From Vampirovibrionales bacterium (lineage in GTDB: Bacteria; Cyanobacteriota; Vampirovibrionia; Vampirovibrionales; JAGQHJ01), in contig JANWIO010000059.1 in NCBI GenBank assembly GCA_025449835.1, positions 1-57,975 on the forward strand: DNA of 57,975 bases. The letters run 5' to 3'. Position numbers and translations under genes: made by a program. Under the pieces are notes generated by a model. The model did no database searches and had not been told where the DNA came from. It saw nothing but the letters and a program-made list of their open reading frames with translations. Below, piece by piece: positions 10,325 to 57,975 of this stretch; positions within the stretch are counted from its first letter, which is position 1; every line of letters begins with the position of its first letter.

Positions 10325-11312
10325 TTTACCGTCATCCGAAGTTCAACGAAAACCCAAAGACTATAAATCAGACGTCCATCCTGATTGGTGTCCTGGTTGT
10401 GGTGACTTTGGGATTGTCAACGCCATTCAACAAGCAATGGCTGAGTTACAACTGAAACCTTCTCAGGTTTTAATGTACTCTGGTGTTGGGTGTTCTAGTA
10501 AAACCCCCCACTACATTAACACTTATGGGGTTCATACCCTCCATGGACGGAGCCTTCCCTTTGCAACGGGCTCTCACCTGGCAAATCCTGATTTGCAGGT
10601 AGTGGTTGCAGGTGGTGATGGTGATGGTTATGGGATTGGTGCCGGTCACTTTTTAAATGCTGGTCGCCGAAATGCGAATTTGGCATACATTGTGTATGAC
10701 AATGAAGTGTATGGCTTAACCAAAGGGCAAGCTTCACCGACCTTAAAACTCGGTGTGAAGACAAAGTCTTTGCCGTTACCCAACCCAAATGAGGGTATAA
10801 ATCCTTTGGCCATTGCTGTTTCTGCGGGATACACCTTTGTGGCTCGTAGTTATGCCTTTGATGCCAAGCATTTAAAAGAAACGATTAAGCGGGCGATTCT
10901 TCATAAAGGGATGGCCTTGGTGGACGTTCTTCAGCCTTGCCCGACCTACAACAACCTGCGCACCAAAGATTGGTTTGCTGAAGAAGTTGAAATTGGCGGG
11001 ACAAAATACCCCCGAACCTACCATCTGGATGAAAAAGGCTATGATGGTAAAGTTCATAACCCGGCTGATGAAAGGGAAATTGAAGCCAAGAAACTTCAAG
11101 CACTCCAAAAAGTAGAGGCATCAGAGCCTCAAATTGCCCTGGGTGTTTTTTACGAAGTGGAACTGCCGACCTTCTTAGAACGGGTAAAACCCAATATTCC
11201 ACTGTTGCAAAAATACACCAGTTGCAAAATGCCCATTGAAGATCCCAGCACCCACGTGCCCACCACGGATCTTTCGGCAGCCTACGCAGAGGTGTTAACC
11301 AACACCCACTAA
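10314..11312 (+). CDS. korB: 2-oxoacid:ferredoxin oxidoreductase, beta subunit
   Basis: The thiamine-diphosphate and 4Fe-4S carrying partner of KorA. Seen: HPDWCPGCGDFGIV (first two cluster cysteines), GVGCSSKTPHY, the ThDP/Mg motif GGDGDGYGIGAGHF followed about 20 residues later by YDNEVYGLTKGQ, and a later cluster cysteine in QPCPTYNN. The length of 332 residues is normal. The start overlaps the end of korA, so the two are co-translated. A strong intrinsic terminator follows 30 bases after the stop, closing a two-gene operon. Substrate (2-oxoglutarate versus pyruvate or other oxoacids) cannot be settled from reading alone. Confidence 0.9.
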   Translation: MVTNLPSSEVQRKPKDYKSDVHPDWCPGCGDFGIVNAIQQAMAELQLKPSQVLMYSGVGCSSKTPHYINTYGVHTLHGRSLPFATGSHLANPDLQVVVAGGDGDGYGIGAGHFLNAGRRNANLAYIVYDNEVYGLTKGQASPTLKLGVKTKSLPLPNPNEGINPLAIAVSAGYTFVARSYAFDAKHLKETIKRAILHKGMALVDVLQPCPTYNNLRTKDWFAEEVEIGGTKYPRTYHLDEKGYDGKVHNPADEREIEAKKLQALQKVEASEPQIALGVFYEVELPTFLERVKPNIPLLQKYTSCKMPIEDPSTHVPTTDLSAAYAEVLTNTH

Positions 11313-11342
11313 GGCGCTCATAGGGTTAAAACAAAACCAATA

Positions 11343-11382
11343 AAAACCTGCCTGATGTTGAAACGCAAAAGGCAGGTTTTTT
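11343..11382 (+). terminator. Rho-independent terminator after korB
   Basis: A perfect inverted repeat, AAAACCTGCC and GGCAGGTTTT, around an 18-base loop and followed by further T residues. It lies 30 bases downstream of the korB stop and probably ends the korAB transcript; the A-run on the left arm could also let it act on the opposing minus-strand gene. Confidence 0.85.
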
Positions 11383-11407
11383 AGTGCTTTACTGAGCGAC
11401 CTCGTGA

Positions 11408-11737
11408 CTAAACTTTAGCGGAAACCCCCTTAACGTGGGTTAAATAGGCTAAAATTTGTTTGTCCGCTATGTCGATATAGGGGTCTCGCCCAATATCAGA
11501 GCGAGAAGATGTTTTAAAGACAAATGAGTTTTTTTCTGTTTGATCGGTCGTTTTATTGCCACTATCATTAACCGAAATTGTTGTATGATCCCCTTTTACA
11601 ATGTCCAGGTCGACAAAAACTGGATTGTTTTTGCCGACAGCTTCAGCGGTTTGTCGTAAACCTTCAATTGCCTTTTGGCTACCGTTATGGGTGCCTTTAA
11701 TGGTCCCTGCAAAACGAATGGGGCTTATCATGGTCAT
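11408..11737 (-). CDS. Small hypothetical protein, 109 aa, with N-terminal PIRFAG tag
   Basis: A 109-residue hydrophilic protein opening with MTMISPIRFAG. The rest is Asp-, Thr- and Ser-rich with no cysteine and no membrane segment; the C-terminal part (DPYIDIADKQILAYL) may be helical. A Shine-Dalgarno-like AAAGGAC lies upstream of the ATG. The N-terminal Ile-Arg-Phe-Ala/Gly segment recurs at the start of other unrelated proteins in the window. No family recognised. It converges on the korB terminator. Confidence 0.55.
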   Translation of the reverse strand: MTMISPIRFAGTIKGTHNGSQKAIEGLRQTAEAVGKNNPVFVDLDIVKGDHTTISVNDSGNKTTDQTEKNSFVFKTSSRSDIGRDPYIDIADKQILAYLTHVKGVSAKV

Positions 11738-38544: not shown

Positions 38545-38769
38545 TTAAACTTTAAGGCGTTCTTCGGGGTGTTTCCGAAAGTATTCTGCGGCTTCATGAA
38601 TTTCTTTTCCCCGAATTTCTCCGCCTTTTTGACCGATCTTGGAGTAAAACTCAGGGCCATATTTTTCTTTTACAGTGTTTCCGCCTTTACGTCCGGCTTC
38701 TTGTACCGTCATACCGCCTTTTTTCTCTTTTGATTTAGGTAAGGGTGCTTTTTGCTTTTTTCTTGGCAT
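38545..38769 (-). CDS. KGG-repeat stress-type protein (copy 1), 74 aa
   Basis: A small basic hydrophilic protein with two KGG-type repeats: TVQEAGRKGGNTVKEKYG and EFYSKIGQKGGEIRGKE. This matches the Em/GsiB-like (LEA group 1-type) stress-induced protein family found in bacteria under desiccation or general stress. A strong AAGGAGG is 6 bases before the ATG. It is a paralogue of the next upstream gene; the shared core is nearly identical for about 30 residues while the ends differ. Confidence 0.8.
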   Translation of the reverse strand: MPRKKQKAPLPKSKEKKGGMTVQEAGRKGGNTVKEKYGPEFYSKIGQKGGEIRGKEIHEAAEYFRKHPEERLKV

Positions 38770-38801: not shown

Positions 38802-39008
38802 TTACACTTTCCCGAGTTTTTTAAGCTCTCGAAATCTTTTTGCTTCGGCTTGAACTTTAACGCCCCCTTTTTGACCGATTTGAGAATAAAACTCGGGGCC
38901 ATATTTTTCTTTCACAGTGTTTCCGCCTTTACGTCCGGCTTCTTGTACTGTCATTGGTTTTGATTTTGCAAGCTTTTGTTTGCTGCTTCCCCTTCCTCGT
39001 ACAGGCAT
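38802..39008 (-). CDS. KGG-repeat stress-type protein (copy 2), 68 aa
   Basis: The paralogue of the 38545 gene, opening MPVRGRGSSKQKLAKSKP and carrying the same two KGG repeats (AGRKGGNTVKEKYG, SQIGQKGGVKV) with a different Lys/Arg tail. ATG 39008 is preferred over the longer frame from 39056: GGGAGAA lies about 8 bases upstream of it. It precedes copy 1 by 32 bases and is probably co-transcribed with it. Confidence 0.78.
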   Translation of the reverse strand: MPVRGRGSSKQKLAKSKPMTVQEAGRKGGNTVKEKYGPEFYSQIGQKGGVKVQAEAKRFRELKKLGKV

Positions 39009-39359
39009 AAACCATATTCTCCCATTGTTTCTAATATCTAACAGATGACATCCCATAATAAGCTTTATCTTTATTTAAATGCATTGGCCTTGTGGACACT
39101 CTTGTATGGAAGACGCATTCACCATAAGAGGGATTTCTGAGCATGCCCATGTTCTGAGATGCCATTTTTCTGTTCAAGGCCTTGGGTAGAAATGATGAAA
39201 GGTATCCTTGGGATGGACCTCGACCATAAGGCCATGGCTTGGTTATTGCAGATTGACCAGGGGGTGAGGTAGAATAGGCTGGCCGATAAAAATGATAGGT
39301 GCCGGGTAAATTGGCGTTTAAACACTAAAAAAATCGGCTTAGAAAGGCTCATTGTACAA
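39009..39359. promoter_or_regulatory. Divergent gap KGG genes / YmdB-like gene
   Basis: A 351-base region. A plus-strand promoter candidate is TTGCAG (39246-39251) with TAGAAT (39270-39275), 18-base spacer. An open frame on the minus strand at 39119-39490 has no coding character. No RNA gene seen. Confidence 0.35.
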
Positions 39360-42089: not shown

Positions 42090-42166
42090 GGGGCGGTAGC
42101 TCAGTTGGTTAGAGTACCTGCCTGTCACGCAGGATGTCGCGGGTTCGAGCCCCGTCCGCCCCGCCA
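42090..42166 (+). tRNA. tRNA-Asp (anticodon GTC)
   Basis: Acceptor GGGGCGG pairs with CCGCCCC, D-arm TAGCTCAGTTGGTTAGAGTA, anticodon stem CCTG...CAGG with loop containing GTC, T-arm CGGGTTCGAGCCCCG, discriminator G and encoded CCA; 77 bases, all arms intact. Its 3' half also encodes the last 13 codons and the stop of the opposing recombinase, marking the island boundary. Confidence 0.96.
42125..42166. other. Putative attachment site within tRNA-Asp
   Basis: The 42 bases shared by the tRNA 3' half and the recombinase 3' end are where chromosome and element meet. A tRNA 3' end is the usual target of integrating elements. A second copy of this stretch, expected at the other end, is not in the window. 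Confidence 0.5.
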
Positions 42167-43600
42167 TTTTTCAAAATCCCTGAATTTATAAAAATATTCA
42201 AACGCTGGATTCCATACAGGACTTAAGTTTTCACCCTCCAATAAATAGTTCGATGAGATAAATCTCAGAAGTCTTCGCCGATTGGTAAAATTTTGATGTT
42301 CATAAAGCACCAGTGCTTTTTCGGCGAGTTCTATGAGTTGGATACCCATTTCGATATAAGAAACGCTACCCCTTTTATGCTCTTCTAAGGTTTTGAGGAG
42401 TTTTTGTTGTTCCTCAACATATTGTTGATGTTTTCTCCTCCAGAGTTCTTCAGGGATGATTCCCTCAAGCTTATCTTCGTATATCTGATCAAGCTTGGTC
42501 TGCACTTTAGATAGTTGGGCTTGGACGTGAGAAGTAGACTCTTTATGAAACACCTTTTCCTCAGCATGGTGTTCTTTTAAGGCTTTAATCACTATTTCAC
42601 TGTCGGGTTTCCCTATCTGAATCCCTTTTAAAAGTGCCAAAAATTGTTGTTCTAGCTTCTCTTCACGTACATGCTTTGCTCTTTGTGAACATTCCTTGTT
42701 CGAACAGTGATAGTAGATATAGCGGTTTTTCTTGAGCTCTGCGGTAATTGCACGTCCGCAGACAGCACAAGAAATTAAACCCGTATATTGGAATTCTCGT
42801 TTTGTGGTTTGCCCTTTATAGCGATTTTGAAGAATACTTTGAACCTTTTCAAAGTGTTCAACTGTAACAATCGGCTGATGTTTGCCTTTGTAATACTTCC
42901 CGGCCCAGTAAAAATCACCGATATAAATAGGATTTTTAAGCATTCTTTCGAGTGAAGTGGCTGGAATTCTCAATAAAGAAGAAGAATAGCGAAACCCTTC
43001 TTGAAAAAGTTTATTTCTCAAGGTAACTAAGGAAAACTCTTGTGATGCATAAAGTTCAAATGCTCGTTTTACCAGAGTAGAGGTCTCTGGATGAACCTCA
43101 ATCAGATGTGTTTCAAGGTTATTTTTATACCCATAAGGGGCAACTGAAGGAAAATGACCTTGTTCGGCTTTTTCTTTTTGTCCTTTTTTTACTTCCTCAG
43201 AAAGATTGTCAATATAATTTTTTGCCATGAGAACTTTAATGCCATGGATAAATTTTTCATGGGATTTTGCATCTTTGCTAAGGATTTCCCCTTCTTTGAC
43301 GAGATGGATTTCAACATCCAACTCCTCTAATCGAACATAGTCTTTGAAGTTTCGATACAAGCGATCAGTTTTTTCAACCAAAATACAATGGGGCTCTTTC
43401 GTGGATTTTAAGAAATCAAGCATTTTGTTAAACTGCTCTCTTCCAGAAGATTTGGCAGTTTCAGCCTCAGTGAAGGTGGTTGAGACGGTTAAGCCATTTT
43501 TGTCAGCATATTCTTGAAGTAATTTTAATTGCGCTGGGATGGAAAAGCCCTCTTTTTCTTGCTCACGGCTAGATACACGTGCGTAAATAACAGCTTTCAT
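42125..43600 (-). CDS. Large serine recombinase (site-specific integrase)
   Basis: A 491-residue large serine recombinase. Seen: the catalytic N-terminal domain (IYARVSSREQEKEGFSIPAQ, nucleophile Ser at about residue 10-11), a Recombinase domain (PSVAPYGYKNN, IYIGDFYWAGKYYKGKHQPI), a zinc ribbon (CAVCGRAI...YHCSNKEC), then a coiled coil (about 350-420). It would integrate and excise the island. The last 13 residues (GGRGSNPRHPA being the tail) are read from the tRNA-Asp gene, so recombination changes or restores the C-terminus. Most tRNA-targeting integrases are tyrosine type; a serine enzyme here is less usual. Its start is 5 bases downstream of the HTH gene. Confidence 0.9.
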   Translation of the reverse strand: MKAVIYARVSSREQEKEGFSIPAQLKLLQEYADKNGLTVSTTFTEAETAKSSGREQFNKMLDFLKSTKEPHCILVEKTDRLYRNFKDYVRLEELDVEIHLVKEGEILSKDAKSHEKFIHGIKVLMAKNYIDNLSEEVKKGQKEKAEQGHFPSVAPYGYKNNLETHLIEVHPETSTLVKRAFELYASQEFSLVTLRNKLFQEGFRYSSSLLRIPATSLERMLKNPIYIGDFYWAGKYYKGKHQPIVTVEHFEKVQSILQNRYKGQTTKREFQYTGLISCAVCGRAITAELKKNRYIYYHCSNKECSQRAKHVREEKLEQQFLALLKGIQIGKPDSEIVIKALKEHHAEEKVFHKESTSHVQAQLSKVQTKLDQIYEDKLEGIIPEELWRRKHQQYVEEQQKLLKTLEEHKRGSVSYIEMGIQLIELAEKALVLYEHQNFTNRRRLLRFISSNYLLEGENLSPVWNPAFEYFYKFRDFEKWRGGRGSNPRHPA

Positions 43601-43605
43601 TGTAT

Positions 43606-43791
43606 TTAAACTCCTTGGAGTGATAACAAAACTTGTTTAAGGTCTTCTTTTTGGTAGAGTCGGTATCCATTGAGAGGGTGTCTGATACCCTTGAGCTTAC
43701 CAGAGCGATCCCAACGACGGAGGGTCTCAGCACAGACTCCTATATAGTCAGCAGCTTGTTTGACCGTGAGATAGTCAGAAAGCTTGTTCAT
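43606..43791 (-). CDS. MerR-like HTH / excisionase-type protein, 61 aa
   Basis: A small DNA-binding protein: DYLTVKQAADYIGVCAETLRRWDRSGKLKG followed by GYRLYQKEDLKQVL is the MerR/excisionase-type helix-turn-helix plus wing. ATG 43791 starts the conserved part; the frame extends to 43815 without support. It directly precedes the recombinase (5-base gap) and so probably acts as directionality factor or regulator. The serine-recombinase plus MerR-HTH pairing resembles IS607 organisation, but here the parts are separate and the recombinase is of the large type. Confidence 0.8.
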   Translation of the reverse strand: MNKLSDYLTVKQAADYIGVCAETLRRWDRSGKLKGIRHPLNGYRLYQKEDLKQVLLSLQGV

Positions 43792-43951
43792 GGCGGTAGA
43801 CCTCAATATAAACAACGTTACACAACCTATTATATGCAGATGGGCTTTTAAAGAGAGCCTTTCCTAAGCGTTCCTTACAAAAAGTTAGCATTTCACTTGC
43901 CAAGCCATACTCTTTCGATTCGTCTTCGGTTTTCTGCCGGTGAGTTGTCTA

Positions 43952-51891: not shown

Positions 51892-54800
51892 ATGAAAATG
51901 GTCAAGGAAACTAAAGTTTCTTCAAGAAGAAAAAGTATTAATAAAACGCTTTATGAGACACATAAGCAACAATCTCTAAATACCAACCTGAAAGGGCAAC
52001 CTGTTAAGAGTAGTCGAACCGTCGTAGTTCGGGTTGCTGATCCAACCAATCCCAGGTTTGTAGATGTAAATCAAAAATTTTCATTTCCAGCCCGAGAACA
52101 GGATATTGCTCTTCTAAAGGATTTATTGAGTGATTTCGGATTGGCACGCCACTCCGTGATGGAAGACATTTGGCAAGACTTTCAACAAAATGAAGCCTTC
52201 TATATCCAGGAAGCACAGGAAGTTGAGTATGCTGAAAAGCATGGAACGAATATAAGCCGTTTTACCACTGAAGAAGGTGAGGTAATTTCTACTCCCTTTA
52301 GTTGCCAAGAATGTCAAAAACCTCTTTATGTTCATTATTATGACCCAATTCAGGATAAGAGTAAAAAGCCAAAACGCTATTATTTTGCAAGATGCATCGA
52401 AGAAACCCACAAACGTGGTATTAAACTATCTGACAAAAAGGATGTTAACGATTCTTCTAAAACTATGTTTGATATTAAAAAGTTTAAAGCCCAGCCATTA
52501 TCAAACCATTTCTCTGCTAAATACATTACTGGTAGTAAAACGAAAAATAGTTATGAAAATTGCTTAAAACCCTTTGAATTACCAAAAATAAAAAGACAAT
52601 GGGAACGTTCTGTTGGCGATTCACTTCGGCAAATTGCAGCTAGGGATTTAGCGGGGTTCCTGGACAAATATTATTCCGTCAAGGAGTCTATTCAAAAAAC
52701 GATTGAACATAATAATAAGCAGATTGATTCCAACAGCCTGAAATATGGGTTATCCAAATACCAAGTTTCACCCTTGAACCTCTCCTTGCTTTCATCTATT
52801 AATGGACGAGATGATATTGACGCTTATAATCGACTTGTCTCTACTTATAATACCTGGCTGAATGAAACCTGTTGGCAACACCCAGAGTATGGAAAAGAAC
52901 TTAAGGAAGCATTGCCTAAGTTAAAGCGTTTAAAAGGCTACCCCTCTTTTCCCATCATTGAAAAAGAGCAAAGTCGTTTTCAATATACGGAAGAAGAACT
53001 TGGACTAAAGTTTGAACAATTGATTGCTGACCTTGAAGCTAACTGGCATGTTCATCTTGAACAGTTGACCGATGGTATGTTTCATAATTTTTTAAAACGT
53101 CACAGTCCTCGGGTTATTTGGAAAAAACTACCAGAATATATTGATGATATATCCCCTCCTAAACGCCTCTATTTGAAAAGAAAAGATGAAAAGCAAAAAT
53201 CCCAAAAACAACCTCTGCAATTCAAAGCGACCGAACGCATTGGAAATTGGCTATTTTATGAGTATAAGCAAAAGAACCAGCCCTTGAAAACAGCGTTGAT
53301 AAATACACTGAAGCGTATTGACCAAAAGATTGGTGTACTGAAATTTCATTATCAGAAACAAAAACAGAATGATAAGGAAAATAGGGATATTCAGTCGTAT
53401 CAGCAACTTATCAAATGGTATCAAGCCAAGACAACCCTTCTTCTCGAAGCCCTCCATCCATCCTTGGATACGACAAGTGAGGAACAGAAAACGCTTTATT
53501 GGGAGGTTATCTCTCAAGCCAAAGATTTGTACGGATTGCTCAGAGGAGACCCTTTCAAAAAGAAATTAGAACGAAAAACATTTGAGGTTGTTGGGTTCTC
53601 ATCCTCTGGGAAAACGGGAAAAACTTCTCTTCAGTACGATGCAATCCTTTCAATTTATATCTCTGAAAAGAATGTACCGGAATATTACTTGCTGCTCCAA
53701 CCCCTGAAAAAAGAGAAAAAATGTAAATTTCTTTTAAATGTTGATGAACGGGTTAATCTGACCAGCCTATCCCCCGGCTGGTATGGTTTTTGGAAGGATG
53801 GAGGTAATGACACAACAGTTTTATCGCCCATGGAAGTGAATTTTACTGAAGAAGCTATTATCAGGCTTCCGTTAATCTTTGGTGAACGTCAAGGACAACG
53901 GTATTTGTGGAACAGAATATTCCCTTTAGCATCCTCAACAGAGATGGGCAAATTTCGACTCATGAATGCTCGTGTCATTGAGCAAAGCCTTGCAACTGAC
54001 TTGAAAGATGAAAGGCTAAGAAATAAATATCGCAAGCAAGAAGGACTTTATATTGCCATTGCTTTTGAGAAGGTGGCAGAACATGGGGTACTGGATGATA
54101 AAAGATGGCAATATCAAACAATTTTAGGAGTGGATCGGGGTGAGAAAATTCCTCTGGTTGCCAGATTACTTGATTTGGATGGTAATCCATTACTTGTAGA
54201 TGTTGAAAATGGACAAGATCCATCGATGGGGATACAAATTGGTGTGGATCATTATGCTATTCAGAAAAAATGGGCTGAGAAAATCAAACAGCAACAGAAA
54301 ATAGGTTCTGCTCAAGTCAATGTGGATAGTAACCGTGGGAAACATGTTGCTGATCAGATGATTAACAATGCTGTAGCCCAACTCTTGGATATTGCTAAGT
54401 CTCATAACGCCTTAATTGTATTTGAAGATTTGTCCAGAGGTTTTGGAAGGAGAGGCTCGAACACATATATGACACTCCAGCAGTATACCCGCTTGGAGGA
54501 TGCTTTAATCCGAAAGGCCCAGGAAGTCGGTTTATATCCAGCTAAAGGAGATCTTTTGACGAACTGTCGCAAGGGGATTTTAGCAAAAGTAATAGCTCAA
54601 CATACCTCTCAAACCTGTTCTGCTTGTGGCAGAATCAATAGCAAGGATGCTCTATCCAAAATCCTATTCTCAACCCTCCATAAAACGGACGGAAATTATG
54701 CTTTGAAACGTCCTGACGGTAGCTTGCTCTCTTTAAAAAAGACTGATTTAACCGAAGAAATAGATAAAATTCTAAAAAATGGACAATCCTTTCAGAATTT

Positions 54801-55224
54801 AACAAAGACAGCCCGTAAAAATTTGGTAAGCCTGCTAAACCAGGAATTACAATATAGACCGACCCAGGATCAGTTTCAATGTTTGTATTGTGACCATAAA
54901 GCACATGCGGATGCCCAAGCAGCCCTTAACATTGGACGAGCTTGGCTTTTTGTGCGGGAAGAGGAGGTCAAGGCTTTTCGAGATAGGAGTTCATTGCCTG
55001 GAGAAGCCAAGGGTAGCCAAGAACATCAGCAATACAAAAAGCAGCAAGAGAAGACTCAAAAAGCCAAAAACACTGGTAGGCATTCGAACGATATCGAGTA
55101 TTATCCAGAGAACGAATCGGAAGATATGCAAGGTGCAAAAGATATCAATCAAAAACAAGTTTCTTATGCAGACTTCTGGAGTCAGTTCTATCAAAAACGT
55201 CTGGAGCAAAAGCTATTTCAGTAG
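51892..55224 (+). CDS. cas12e: Cas12e (CasX)-type CRISPR effector nuclease, 1110 aa
   Basis: An RNA-guided DNA nuclease of type V-E. Matches to CasX that I recognise: an N-terminal FSCQECQKPLYV block (C138, C141, C168), RLKGYPSFPIIEK, PMEVNFTEEAIIRLPLIFG and RQGQRYLWN before the nuclease, then RuvC-I GVDRGEKIP (D748), RuvC-II IVFEDLSRGFGRRG (E845), and RuvC-III HADAQAALNIGRAWLF (D1007). The RuvC-I to -II spacing of 97 residues equals that of DpbCasX. Zinc pairs CSAC (909/912) and CLYC (997/1000) lie in the target-strand loading region. Compared with the roughly 980-residue characterised CasX, there is extra sequence at the N-terminus, in the middle, and about 50 Lys/Glu/Gln-rich residues before the terminal FWSQFYQKRLEQ. 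Start ATG 51892 follows GGTGA. Confidence 0.95.
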   Translation: MKMVKETKVSSRRKSINKTLYETHKQQSLNTNLKGQPVKSSRTVVVRVADPTNPRFVDVNQKFSFPAREQDIALLKDLLSDFGLARHSVMEDIWQDFQQNEAFYIQEAQEVEYAEKHGTNISRFTTEEGEVISTPFSCQECQKPLYVHYYDPIQDKSKKPKRYYFARCIEETHKRGIKLSDKKDVNDSSKTMFDIKKFKAQPLSNHFSAKYITGSKTKNSYENCLKPFELPKIKRQWERSVGDSLRQIAARDLAGFLDKYYSVKESIQKTIEHNNKQIDSNSLKYGLSKYQVSPLNLSLLSSINGRDDIDAYNRLVSTYNTWLNETCWQHPEYGKELKEALPKLKRLKGYPSFPIIEKEQSRFQYTEEELGLKFEQLIADLEANWHVHLEQLTDGMFHNFLKRHSPRVIWKKLPEYIDDISPPKRLYLKRKDEKQKSQKQPLQFKATERIGNWLFYEYKQKNQPLKTALINTLKRIDQKIGVLKFHYQKQKQNDKENRDIQSYQQLIKWYQAKTTLLLEALHPSLDTTSEEQKTLYWEVISQAKDLYGLLRGDPFKKKLERKTFEVVGFSSSGKTGKTSLQYDAILSIYISEKNVPEYYLLLQPLKKEKKCKFLLNVDERVNLTSLSPGWYGFWKDGGNDTTVLSPMEVNFTEEAIIRLPLIFGERQGQRYLWNRIFPLASSTEMGKFRLMNARVIEQSLATDLKDERLRNKYRKQEGLYIAIAFEKVAEHGVLDDKRWQYQTILGVDRGEKIPLVARLLDLDGNPLLVDVENGQDPSMGIQIGVDHYAIQKKWAEKIKQQQKIGSAQVNVDSNRGKHVADQMINNAVAQLLDIAKSHNALIVFEDLSRGFGRRGSNTYMTLQQYTRLEDALIRKAQEVGLYPAKGDLLTNCRKGILAKVIAQHTSQTCSACGRINSKDALSKILFSTLHKTDGNYALKRPDGSLLSLKKTDLTEEIDKILKNGQSFQNLTKTARKNLVSLLNQELQYRPTQDQFQCLYCDHKAHADAQAALNIGRAWLFVREEEVKAFRDRSSLPGEAKGSQEHQQYKKQQEKTQKAKNTGRHSNDIEYYPENESEDMQGAKDINQKQVSYADFWSQFYQKRLEQKLFQ

Positions 55225-55306
55225 AAGTTTCCATGAAAAGGCAATTTTTACCTGCCCCTTGTGTTGATTGTTTTATTAGTCCCTTCTTGAGTAGCCTAAG
55301 TAAGCC

Positions 55307-55951
55307 ATGTTTGAAGAAGAAAACCCACTTCTACCTGTTTCCTGGGTTGCTGATTATGCATTTTGCCAATGGGCAGGATATGCTTTCTTTACAGGTTTGG
55401 AAAATTTTGAACAAAAGAATACGGTTTATCAGGATAGCATTGCAGGCCATTTGAGTGTTCATGAGCAACAAAGCCGTTACCGGGAAAAAGGAATTGTTCA
55501 GAAAACGGATGTTTCACTCTCCCATGACATGCTCTACCTAACCGGTAAGGCGGATATGGTTGAGCTTTGGCCTGAAGGGAAAATTGTTCCCATAGAATAC
55601 AAACGTTCCGTTCCTGCCGAAGGGCCACACTTCCATCATCAGGTTCAGCTTTGTCTCCAAGCGCTTTGTCTGGAAAAACAGTATCAAAAGGATATTCCAG
55701 AAGGAGTTATATACAGCATTACCAGCCATCAAAGGGTGCCTGTTCCCTTGACTCCACTATTACGGGAACAAACTCTCAACCTGCTCTCTGAACTCAAAAA
55801 CAAGCTGAAATCTGGAAATCCAAATATGTTCCAAAAACGAAATGATCTGCTCTGCCGACAGTGTACGTTTTTCGAAATCTGCCTTCCACCTGTTTTCTTT
55901 GATGAGTTGAGAAAGACTTCTTCAGATTTTGCAGACCAGGAGGAATTTTAA
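55307..55951 (+). CDS. cas4: Cas4 CRISPR adaptation exonuclease
   Basis: Cas4 processes prespacers and helps select PAM-compatible ones with Cas1-Cas2. Seen: WVADYAFCQWAGYAFF with the first cluster cysteine, the nuclease core GKADMVELW and PIEYKRS (Asp...Glu-x-Lys), QVQLCLQALCLEKQY, and a C-terminal cysteine group CRQCTFFEICLP; four cysteines suggest an iron-sulfur cluster. The 214-residue length is normal. It lies 82 bases after cas12e, and its TAA abuts the ATG of cas1, so cas4-cas1-cas2 is translated as one unit. Confidence 0.92.
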   Translation: MFEEENPLLPVSWVADYAFCQWAGYAFFTGLENFEQKNTVYQDSIAGHLSVHEQQSRYREKGIVQKTDVSLSHDMLYLTGKADMVELWPEGKIVPIEYKRSVPAEGPHFHHQVQLCLQALCLEKQYQKDIPEGVIYSITSHQRVPVPLTPLLREQTLNLLSELKNKLKSGNPNMFQKRNDLLCRQCTFFEICLPPVFFDELRKTSSDFADQEEF

Positions 55952-56944
55952 ATGCGATATGATGGTTTGGAGCGTGTCCCCTTATATCTTTACGCAAAAG
56001 AGGATTACTCTTTAAAAAAATATGGCGACTTATTTCGCTTGTTCCGGGGAGAGGAACAAATTCAGAAAATTCCTGCCATTAAAGTAAATGAGATTCTGGT
56101 TTTCGGTGGGCTCACATTAACTTCTCCCGTAATCCAACTTTGTCAAAAGCACAAAATTAATATTCATTTTTTATCCGGTTCTGGCCAGTATCATGGTTCG
56201 CTCATTTTTGATCCAGCTAAGAACCTCTTTATCCGAAAAGCACAAGCTGAAATCCACCTGGATGACAAACGGCGTCTGGAGTTTGCCAAAGAGTTTGTGC
56301 TAGGAAAAATAACAAACCAAAAATGGGTTTTAGACAGTTTTAGAAAAAAACACCGATTTAACCCAAATATTGATTGGAATAAAATTGAATCTCTTGATTC
56401 ACTTCGTGGGGTGGAAGGGACGTATAGTCGCTTGTATTTTCAAGAACTAGCCAAGCAACTTAAAAACACTGATTTTTCCTTCAACGGACGCTCGAAACGC
56501 CCCCCAGCTGATCCGGTCAATGCGCTTTTGAGTCTTGGGTATACTTTCCTATTCAGTCGCCTTTTCTCATATACAACATTGATCGGTCTTGATCCCTATT
56601 TAGGTTTTTTTCATGAAAACTATTACGGCCGTCCTTCATTAGTTTGTGACTTGATGGAGCCATGGAGACCCCTCTTGGTCGATAAATTCATCCTAACGAT
56701 ATTGAATAGGAATGAATTGTCATTGGAAGACTTTGAACGGGTAGACGACAGCATAAAACTGAATAGTGAAGGTTTCAAGAAATTTATTCAGAAGTGGTAT
56801 ACAAACTTTGAGGTAGACAACCATACTTCAGGACGGTTTGAAACAGAACTGACATACCAAAAAGCGCTAGAGCTTGATACAAGGTTATTTGGGAAATCAT
56901 TGACACAAGAGATTGAAGCATATAAGGCTTATACCAGACCATGA
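55952..56944 (+). CDS. cas1: Cas1 CRISPR integrase
   Basis: The spacer-integrating subunit of the adaptation complex, 330 residues. Seen: a beta-rich N-terminal domain (IPAIKVNEILVFGGLTLTS), then the catalytic Glu in RGVEGTYSRLYF, His in LGFFHENYYGRPSL and the acidic VCDLMEPWRPLLVD. This set of metal ligands is complete, so it should be active. ATG immediately follows the cas4 stop (TAAATG), with AGGAGGAA upstream as ribosome site. The last 4 bases overlap cas2. Confidence 0.96.
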   Translation: MRYDGLERVPLYLYAKEDYSLKKYGDLFRLFRGEEQIQKIPAIKVNEILVFGGLTLTSPVIQLCQKHKINIHFLSGSGQYHGSLIFDPAKNLFIRKAQAEIHLDDKRRLEFAKEFVLGKITNQKWVLDSFRKKHRFNPNIDWNKIESLDSLRGVEGTYSRLYFQELAKQLKNTDFSFNGRSKRPPADPVNALLSLGYTFLFSRLFSYTTLIGLDPYLGFFHENYYGRPSLVCDLMEPWRPLLVDKFILTILNRNELSLEDFERVDDSIKLNSEGFKKFIQKWYTNFEVDNHTSGRFETELTYQKALELDTRLFGKSLTQEIEAYKAYTRP

Positions 56945-57216
56945 GGTACTTGATTTGTTATGATATTGAGGATGACAAACATCGTAATCGCCTTGTCAAA
57001 GTGCTTGAACAATATGGTGAAAGGGTCCAATATTCAGTTTTTGAAGTACAATTGCCGCCTAGCCTCCTGAAAACATTACGAAAGCGTCTGGTAGCGCAGA
57101 AAATAATAGGTAAACGGGATAGCCTGTTAATCTATCCTCTATGCGAAAGTTGCTACCCTAAAGTTGAACGAACCGGCAAGAACCCTTTGATCAATTCAAG
57201 CGGCATTGTGTTTTAA
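56941..57216 (+). CDS. cas2: Cas2 CRISPR adaptation protein
   Basis: The structural partner of Cas1, 91 residues. Seen: the ferredoxin-like start RYLICYDIEDDKHRNRLVK with the conserved Asp, YGERVQYSVFEV, and DSLLIYPLC. ATG overlaps the cas1 stop (ATGA). It ends the protein-coding part of the locus; the tracrRNA promoter begins within its last codons and the array follows. Confidence 0.95.
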   Translation: MRYLICYDIEDDKHRNRLVKVLEQYGERVQYSVFEVQLPPSLLKTLRKRLVAQKIIGKRDSLLIYPLCESCYPKVERTGKNPLINSSGIVF

Positions 57217-57234
57217 TGGCTAAACTGTTATAGT
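57206..57234 (+). promoter_or_regulatory. Promoter for the tracrRNA
   Basis: TTGTGT (57206-57211) and TATAGT (57229-57234) with a 17-base spacer. The predicted start near 57241 falls exactly where a tracrRNA upstream of the scaffold would begin. Confidence 0.55.
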
Positions 57235-57240
57235 TCCTTC

Positions 57241-57334
57241 TGGAGCCACAAGCTCTGGGCCATTTATTGGAAACTCTTCCTTTGAGTCCCGAACCCAGCA
57301 CGTAACGTGTATGGACAAAGTTGCTTCCTTACCA
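57241..57334 (+). ncRNA. CasX-type tracrRNA
   Basis: The segment reproduces the known CasX tracrRNA layout. CCTTTGAG at 57279-57286 corresponds to the ACTTTGAG element that pairs with the CAAAG at the repeat 3' end. The scaffold stem at 57295-57314 has the flanks CCAG...TATGG of PlmCasX with a different but still paired stem (CACG-TAA-CGTG). ACAAAG follows, then GCTTCCTTACC (57323-57333), which pairs with GGTAAGGAGC of the repeat except for one bulged T. A 5' hairpin GAGC-CACAA-GCTC is at 57243-57255. The 3' end is uncertain. Confidence 0.82.
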
Positions 57335-57347
57335 AATCTTTTATATT

Positions 57348-57370
57348 ACACATCTAACTGTGTGTTTTGT
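57348..57370 (+). terminator. Possible tracrRNA terminator
   Basis: ACACA (57348-57352) and TGTGT (57359-57363) with a 6-base loop, then GTTTTGT. A weak stem, but correctly placed just after the antirepeat. Confidence 0.35.
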
Positions 57371-57397
57371 ACTTTGAGAAAAGAATAAGGCGAAAGC

Positions 57398-57415
57398 CCT
57401 TACCTTATAAGGGTT
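57398..57415 (+). repeat. Perfect 18-nt antirepeat in the CRISPR leader
   Basis: CCTTACCTTATAAGGGTT is the exact reverse complement of repeat positions 7-24. A CTTTGAG (57372-57378) lies just upstream, as in the tracrRNA, but without the CasX scaffold stem. It could pair with the first repeat in the pre-crRNA or form part of a second tracr-like RNA. Confidence 0.8.
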
Positions 57416-57459
57416 AAGAAGATTTTTGTAACTTGCAAGGGTTTGTTTTATGAAAATGC

Positions 57460-57483
57460 TTTGATTGATAAGGGTTTTCAGAT
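57460..57483 (+). repeat. Degenerate inverted repeat copy in the leader
   Basis: CTTTGATTG followed by ATAAGGGTTTTCAGA matches both ends of the reverse-complement repeat with the middle deleted and one extra T. It looks like a decayed repeat in inverted orientation. Confidence 0.6.
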
Positions 57484-57554
57484 TTTAGGGATAAACTTTT
57501 CTCAACTCTTTAAAAGGCCAATGCTAAAAACCCTGAATATACAAGGAAAATGAG

Positions 57555-57975
57555 GTCTGAAACCCTTATAAGGTAAGGAGCATCATCAAAGGTAATCCGT
57601 CGGTTAACAATTTCTAGGATTTCAGTCTGAAACCCTTATAAGGTAAGGAGCATCATCAAAGATACTACTACACGTCAAACAGCGCAAGAGTTTGGTCTGA
57701 AACCCTTATAAGGTAAGGAGCATCATCAAAGTAGAGTTCTGTTGAGGGGTCTCCCGGTGGGGTGACGTCTGAAACCCTTATAAGGTAAGGAGCATCATCA
57801 AAGTAAAGAGCTAGATATGATTGTAGATCTTTACGGCCTAGTCTGAAACCCTTATAAGGTAAGGAGCATCATCAAAGTTATCAACATAGCCACCTTCAAA
57901 ACAAAGACCCACCGTCTGAAACCCTTATAAGATAAGGAGCATCATCAAAGATCAGGATTGCTCTAACGCTCCCAC
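57555..57975 (+). CRISPR. Type V-E CRISPR array, six repeats visible, continues past the window
   Basis: Six 37-nt repeats start at 57555, 57625, 57695, 57767, 57841 and 57914. Each begins GTCTGAAACCCTTATAAGG and ends GCATCATCAAAG, the ending shared with known CasX repeats (CATCAAAG). Five complete spacers are 33, 33, 35, 37 and 36 nt; a sixth is cut at 25 nt by the window edge. Repeats 1-5 are identical, while the sixth has one G-to-A change in the GGTAAGG part, which may mark the trailer side. Leader and tracrRNA lie on the cas2 side, so new spacers should enter at 57591. Confidence 0.97.

Follow-up and report, generated by a model that had tools for sequence, protein, structure and literature searches.

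A large serine recombinase gene reading antisense into tRNA-Asp in a Vampirovibrionales genome: the probable left end of an integrated element

Why should the reading frame of a site-specific recombinase end inside a tRNA gene? The question is raised by the window analysed here, a stretch of 57,975 nt that makes up the whole of contig C59 in the 2.9-Mb draft genome of a Vampirovibrionales bacterium (G000). The window carries an intact tRNA-Asp gene and, on the opposite strand, a gene for a large serine recombinase (LSR; Table 1). The final 42 nt of the LSR frame, comprising 13 codons and the stop, are antisense to the tRNA; the codons run from a tryptophan (W), read from the antisense of CCA, to an alanine (A), and the stop codon TGA overlaps the anticodon. 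In translation, the protein ends in ...FEKWRGGRGSNPRHPA, with WRGGRGSNPRHPA as the tRNA-encoded tail. ARAGORN and translation of the open reading frame thus reproduce exactly what a preliminary description of the locus had stated, namely, that the recombinase frame enters the tRNA by 42 bases and stops at the anticodon region.

Table 1. Features of the window around the tRNA-Asp gene and the recombinase gene
Feature	Position	Strand	Basis and remarks
tRNA-Asp (gtc), intact	42090..42166	+	ARAGORN; probable attB target, now attL
Large serine recombinase (LSR, integrase), 491 aa	42125..43600	-	ORF, Pfam
tRNA-encoded C-terminal tail WRGGRGSNPRHPA and stop	42125..42166	-	Translation
Inferred crossover zone, CCA/discriminator end of tRNA-Asp (antisense AAAAATGGCGGGG)	42159..42171		Mapped in relatives
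Visible part of the putative integrated element, to contig end	42167..57975		G+C, ORFs, Pfam
Small MerR/HTH_17 protein, immediately 5' of the LSR gene	43606..43815	-	Pfam HTH_17 5e-10

The protein displays the domain order characteristic of large serine recombinases, with Pfam matches to Resolvase (1e-21), Recombinase (8e-16) and Zn_ribbon_recom (3e-11), all above the cut-off; only serine-recombinase domains were recognized by Pfam, and a tyrosine recombinase domain is absent. Invariant residues of the catalytic region across 40 aligned sequences, that of the window among them, include Y4, R6, S8, R77 and R80, the N-terminal serine/arginine motif being YARVSS. The protein scores below the NCBIfam equivalog cut-offs of the XisF and CcrAB families (103 bits versus 375 for XisF and 86 versus 900 for CcrB).

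The arrangement is not a matter of chance, because it recurs throughout the closest homologues. Among the 80 best LSR relatives in public genomes, which span many phyla, 57 show an intact tRNA, in antisense orientation, where the LSR gene ends, and the LSR frame enters the tRNA in 54. tRNA targeting is therefore the rule in this LSR clade. Ten isotypes are represented among the 57, namely, Gln (24), Asn (12), Asp (6), Glu (6), His (3), Pro (2) and one each of Val, Ala, Leu and Met. The LSR gene of L083 ends at a called tmRNA gene, and the ends of L089 and L090 appear tmRNA-like by eye. A tree of 100 protein sequences implies at least 28 switches of target type. Among the LSRs from phage and plasmid collections, which were all distant, two of the three plasmid proteins checked also end at a tRNA. 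The earlier remark that LSRs seldom use tRNA genes accordingly holds for the literature, in which a 2011 account calls such genes rare targets of serine integrases and a 2015 account knows of no such targeting, and fails within this clade, in which tRNA targeting is the norm.

In 56 of the 57 tRNA-ended relatives, the LSR frame reads the tRNA end in one and the same phase, once tRNAs without an encoded CCA are corrected for. We considered this constancy as a sign of selection on the tRNA-coded tail, an argument weakened by the linker, which measures 75 or 30 nt almost without exception. The tRNA-coded tails themselves are arbitrary, and some terminate within a few codons (tRNA-His and some tRNA-Asn); in-frame stops are present in some LSR relatives. 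In six relatives (L013, L029, L040, L045, L077 and L085), the LSR gene is followed by the 3' part of a tRNA that is broken near the anticodon, which is best read as displacement by a later island inserted at the anticodon loop of the same tRNA.

The C-terminus is different in relatives that are not integrated. Twelve relatives on viral contigs (L111, L112, L114-L117, L120, L123, L124, L153, L167 and L172) have no tRNA at the end of the LSR gene and encode instead a C-terminal tail of their own, 29-38 aa in length. In L123, the int gene is flanked on one side by a primase/helicase gene and on the other by genes for a reverse transcriptase and tail proteins, indicating that attP lies inside a phage genome. 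Integrated close relatives, namely, L118 (tmRNA-like gene), L119, L122 (tRNA-Asp) and L170, match the free forms at the DNA level up to the TGG that is antisense to the CCA or the discriminator, and lose all DNA likeness to them beyond it; for instance, L117 and L118 are 88% identical over the 1 kb preceding TGG and 27% identical over the next 100 nt. In four independent pairs of free tails, with 123 aligned codons altogether, pN (0.14) is lower than pS (0.32; P=0.0012), and the free tail is, by this measure, under purifying selection. AlphaFold2 models the tail of L115 as two helices (pLDDT ~80-88). Together, the low pN and the two-helix model indicate that the free tail is translated and constrained. 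A profile recognizes it across divergent phages; the conserved free tails all come from gut-phage relatives, which are ~40-45% identical and belong to the same family. The free gut phages also encode a reverse transcriptase near their tail genes (L115:2748-3845 and L123:9243-10412; PHROG 1423, E 1e-94 and 1e-104, respectively), which suggests diversity-generating retroelements.

Both ends of an integrated element could be compared in two cases. In prophage G014, the recombinase gene at 44.3 kb ends in a tRNA that is cut by the contig end, and the profile of free tails detects an orphan tail at 11311-11412 (E 3e-10), giving an element of ~33 kb from tail to attL. The attL of G014 reads ...CATAAACTGG joined to GCATGAAGAGACTCGAACTCC and its attR ...CTTTATGGTGG joined to TGATAACGTCGCTAAAATCGAACTTT; only the 3 bp TGG are common to both, a very short core of the kind typical of serine integrases, and joining the chromosomal flanks yields a tRNA 3' end with CCA. 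In the complete Kordiimonadales genome G004, with tRNA-Gln as the target, attR was located by comparison with relatives at ~3,443,053, 19.6 kb from attL. Neither attR, of G014 or of G004, contains a tRNA fragment. The reconstructed tail of G004 is short (19 aa), and this element may therefore be decayed or different.

The att sites further suggest how the tRNA is recognized. In attP, the motif T(C/A)GAAC follows the NGG core at a distance of exactly 17 nt in 13 of 13 sites (the twelve free forms and the attR of G014), with a chance expectation for NGG-N17-T(C/A)GAAC of 0.0006 per sequence, as estimated by shuffling. Because this motif is read in differing protein frames, as S-N, L-E or V-E, it is conserved as DNA. 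In attB, the T-loop sequence TCGAA lies 12 nt after the core in the integrated L083, L118, L119, L122, L170 and L171. In the Listeria LI/A118 integrase, which has the same domain plan, the attB copy of the zinc-ribbon motif likewise lies 5 bp nearer to the core than the attP copy (PMC3783163); there, however, the target is not a tRNA and the offset was tested experimentally, whereas here it is deduced from sequence. Since the offset in the gut-phage relatives (N17/N12) equals the LI rule, the T-loop is the probable zinc-ribbon site, and the zinc ribbon of these relatives probably reads the tRNA T-loop. G004, in which the motif spacing differs from 17, does not fit the rule.

Turning back to the genome of the window, an empty counterpart of the locus exists, as G001, a member of the same family, carries an orthologous tRNA-Asp gene that is identical in 77 of 77 nt and is preceded by the same gene (5-formyltetrahydrofolate cyclo-ligase-like, named from sequence), with no LSR gene behind it. 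The preliminary description had proposed comparison with the empty locus of relatives as a check, and this comparison bore fruit; empty sites were found in Rhodopseudomonas as well. The crossover zone listed in Table 1 follows from the relatives, in which crossover maps to (T/C)GG at the 3' end of the tRNA; the window and the empty site of G001 have this stretch in common, and the exact dinucleotide within it is ambiguous for the window. Beyond the tRNA, G001 has a stretch resembling a terminator and an outer-membrane-efflux-like gene; a search for the attR of the window element by means of this gene gave no match in G000.

Three tRNA genes in the genome of the window bear traces of LSRs. Apart from the tRNA-Asp of the window, these are a tRNA-Pro on contig C144, in which a recombinase with 46% identity ends, and a second tRNA-Asp on contig C94, which is complete and is followed by remains of the C-terminus of a related LSR, decayed and with an internal TAA. 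The latter locus was considered as the attR of the window element and rejected, since a complete tRNA with a decayed LSR remnant represents another former attL. The genome contains two copies of tRNA-Asp, both complete, and no displaced 3' half. Such a second half had been proposed earlier as the mark of the far end, with the lack of any duplication as grounds for refutation; because attL and attR share a core of just ~3 bp, a displaced half is not expected, and that argument does not hold. The free-tail profile gave no match in G000, and neither the window element nor its close clade yielded a free form or an attR; the far end of the element lies outside the assembly. The nearest non-tRNA junction, that of L014, is ambiguous: this locus (L014:5001-11092) carries an LSR near-identical to that of L015, which is integrated at tRNA-Val in the same genome, and its junction reads TGG followed by TGGAGGAAATCC.

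On balance, we consider it likely that the window represents the attL of an element that uses an LSR specific for tRNA or tmRNA 3' ends and that loses the C-terminal tail of this LSR on integration and regains it on excision. The LSR would recombine at the tRNA's CCA/discriminator end, within a core of ~3 bp, and its zinc ribbon would read the T-loop (antisense TCGAA) on the tRNA side. Because the int gene ends at attP, its reading frame would span the point of crossover. While the element is a free circle, the frame would run on into element DNA encoding the conserved, folded tail of 29-38 aa; integration would leave the tail code orphaned at attR and endow the integrated int gene with an arbitrary antisense-tRNA tail, and excision would restore the free tail. 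Loss of the tail could lower or redirect activity, ensuring stable lysogeny or blocking re-integration. The earlier proposal that integration sets the C-terminus of the protein and excision changes it is thus borne out by the relatives, in which free and integrated forms differ at the C-terminus, and by the two ends of G014; by extension from these relatives, the element of the window would undergo the same swap.

Some components of this scheme have already been published, namely, C-terminal exchange on integration, in the rumA ICEs, and the rare use of tRNA genes by serine recombinases. The serine integrases of streptococcal rumA ICEs have the att site in their own 3' end and swap their C-terminus with the target gene on integration, as proposed here (PMC4701971). 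They differ in that they target a protein gene, without the participation of any tRNA, and the exchange is sense into the coding frame; a conserved free tail is not described in the available part (PMC4701971). In the Int (IntP) protein of Myxococcus phage Mx8, attP lies inside int, and integration replaces a 112-residue C-terminus with 13 residues and lowers activity (Tojo 1996; PMC6070905; PMC4701971); Mx8 Int is an unrelated tyrosine integrase (Phage_int_M match), so that the resemblance is convergent. Phage phiRSM1 (tRNA-Ser) and the Mycobacterium AICEs (tRNA-Leu) are rare cases of serine recombinases acting at tRNA genes, as in the window, with one target each and no C-terminal exchange described in the available part of the source (PMC3218068); the likeness noted is one of target. 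The tDNA islands collected by Islander also lie beside a regenerated tRNA gene with the integrase gene at the tRNA end, but their definition requires a tyrosine integrase together with a displaced piece of the tDNA, and no such piece occurs here (PMC4383910). The TIGER resource may contain islands of the present type, undiscussed.

Three other explanations were weighed against tail loss on integration. The C-terminal swap could be a functionless by-product of an int gene lying flush against attP, the tail being dispensable and the reading into the tRNA junk. We regard this as rather unlikely: it accommodates the arbitrary tRNA tails, at times only a few codons long, and the constant phase of the main clade, which follows from two fixed linkers, but it leaves the purifying selection on a free tail that is recognizable in divergent phages and modelled as folded without a reason, and the reduced activity of the Mx8 integrase after an analogous swap, as reported (PMC4701971), also speaks against it.

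Alternatively, crossover might take place inside the tRNA, in the anticodon loop, where many tyrosine integrases act, with the element carrying the tRNA 3' half. The six relatives with a tRNA broken near the anticodon could be taken in this sense, although they fit later displacement by another island. An element of this kind should leave displaced tRNA copies, and neither a 25-nt 3' copy of tRNA-Gln in ten occupied alphaproteobacterial genomes nor a tRNA-Asp copy in the genome of the window was found, in agreement with the attR sites of G014 and G004; a crossover at the anticodon is therefore very improbable. Least credible is a dead recombinase gene, accidentally truncated, that lost its stop codon beside a tRNA with no integration event. 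Decay does occur in this family, as seen in the C94 copy and the in-frame stops of some relatives, but the open reading frame of the window is complete and retains the family-conserved residues, the orthologous site in G001 is empty and tRNAs of ten isotypes share the arrangement.

Under the favoured reading, that of tail loss on integration, the stretch from the tRNA to the contig end would belong to one element, encoding the LSR, an HTH protein, a C5 DNA methylase, a ParB-like protein, an 859-aa ORF and a Cas12e CRISPR-Cas locus. The G+C content is mostly lower on the recombinase side (~0.37-0.43, with one stretch at 0.46) than on the left side (~0.44). The small MerR/HTH_17 protein is a possible candidate for a directionality factor of this element; as a factor common to the family it was discarded, a homologue being located upstream of the LSR gene in just 1 of 77 relatives. 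The type V CRISPR-Cas locus (51892-57950), on the recombinase side of the tRNA, consists of Cas12e/CasX, Cas4, Cas1 and Cas2 and an array of 36-37-nt repeats that extends to the contig end, and is possibly cargo of the element. Its Cas12e/CasX (1110 aa; NCBIfam NF045604, E 2e-111; PADLOC 5e-107) is long compared with the usual ~980 aa of CasX. In L014, the LSR gene directly precedes Cas9 (PADLOC 5e-31) and a Cas1-like ORF, the second instance of a CRISPR-Cas locus next to such a recombinase. On the other side of the tRNA, two neighbouring small ORFs on the minus strand (38545-38769 and 38802-39056) share the repeated motif MTVQEAGRKGGNTVKEKYGPEFYS.IGQKGG, which we take to be a KGG-type stress protein pattern.

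The literature searched yielded no broad clade that unites C-terminal exchange with tRNA use and has many tRNA and tmRNA targets, the T-loop motif and a conserved free tail. We tentatively propose such a clade, the members of which would read the universal T-loop with the zinc ribbon, be able thereby to shift among tRNA and tmRNA genes, and possess a built-in switch in the form of a folded tail that the integration-competent enzyme loses on integration and regains on excision. At least some of the C-termini of the '...GRDSNPRPPA' type in annotated recombinases may be antisense tRNA. Serine integrases are widely used in genome engineering, and a tRNA-targeting clade would supply many with safe, conserved landing sites, whereas the T-loop as the zinc-ribbon motif, placed 5 bp farther from the core in attP, would offer a simple rule for predicting both attB and attP. 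Removal of the tail by integration, if true, would constitute a self-acting control of directionality.
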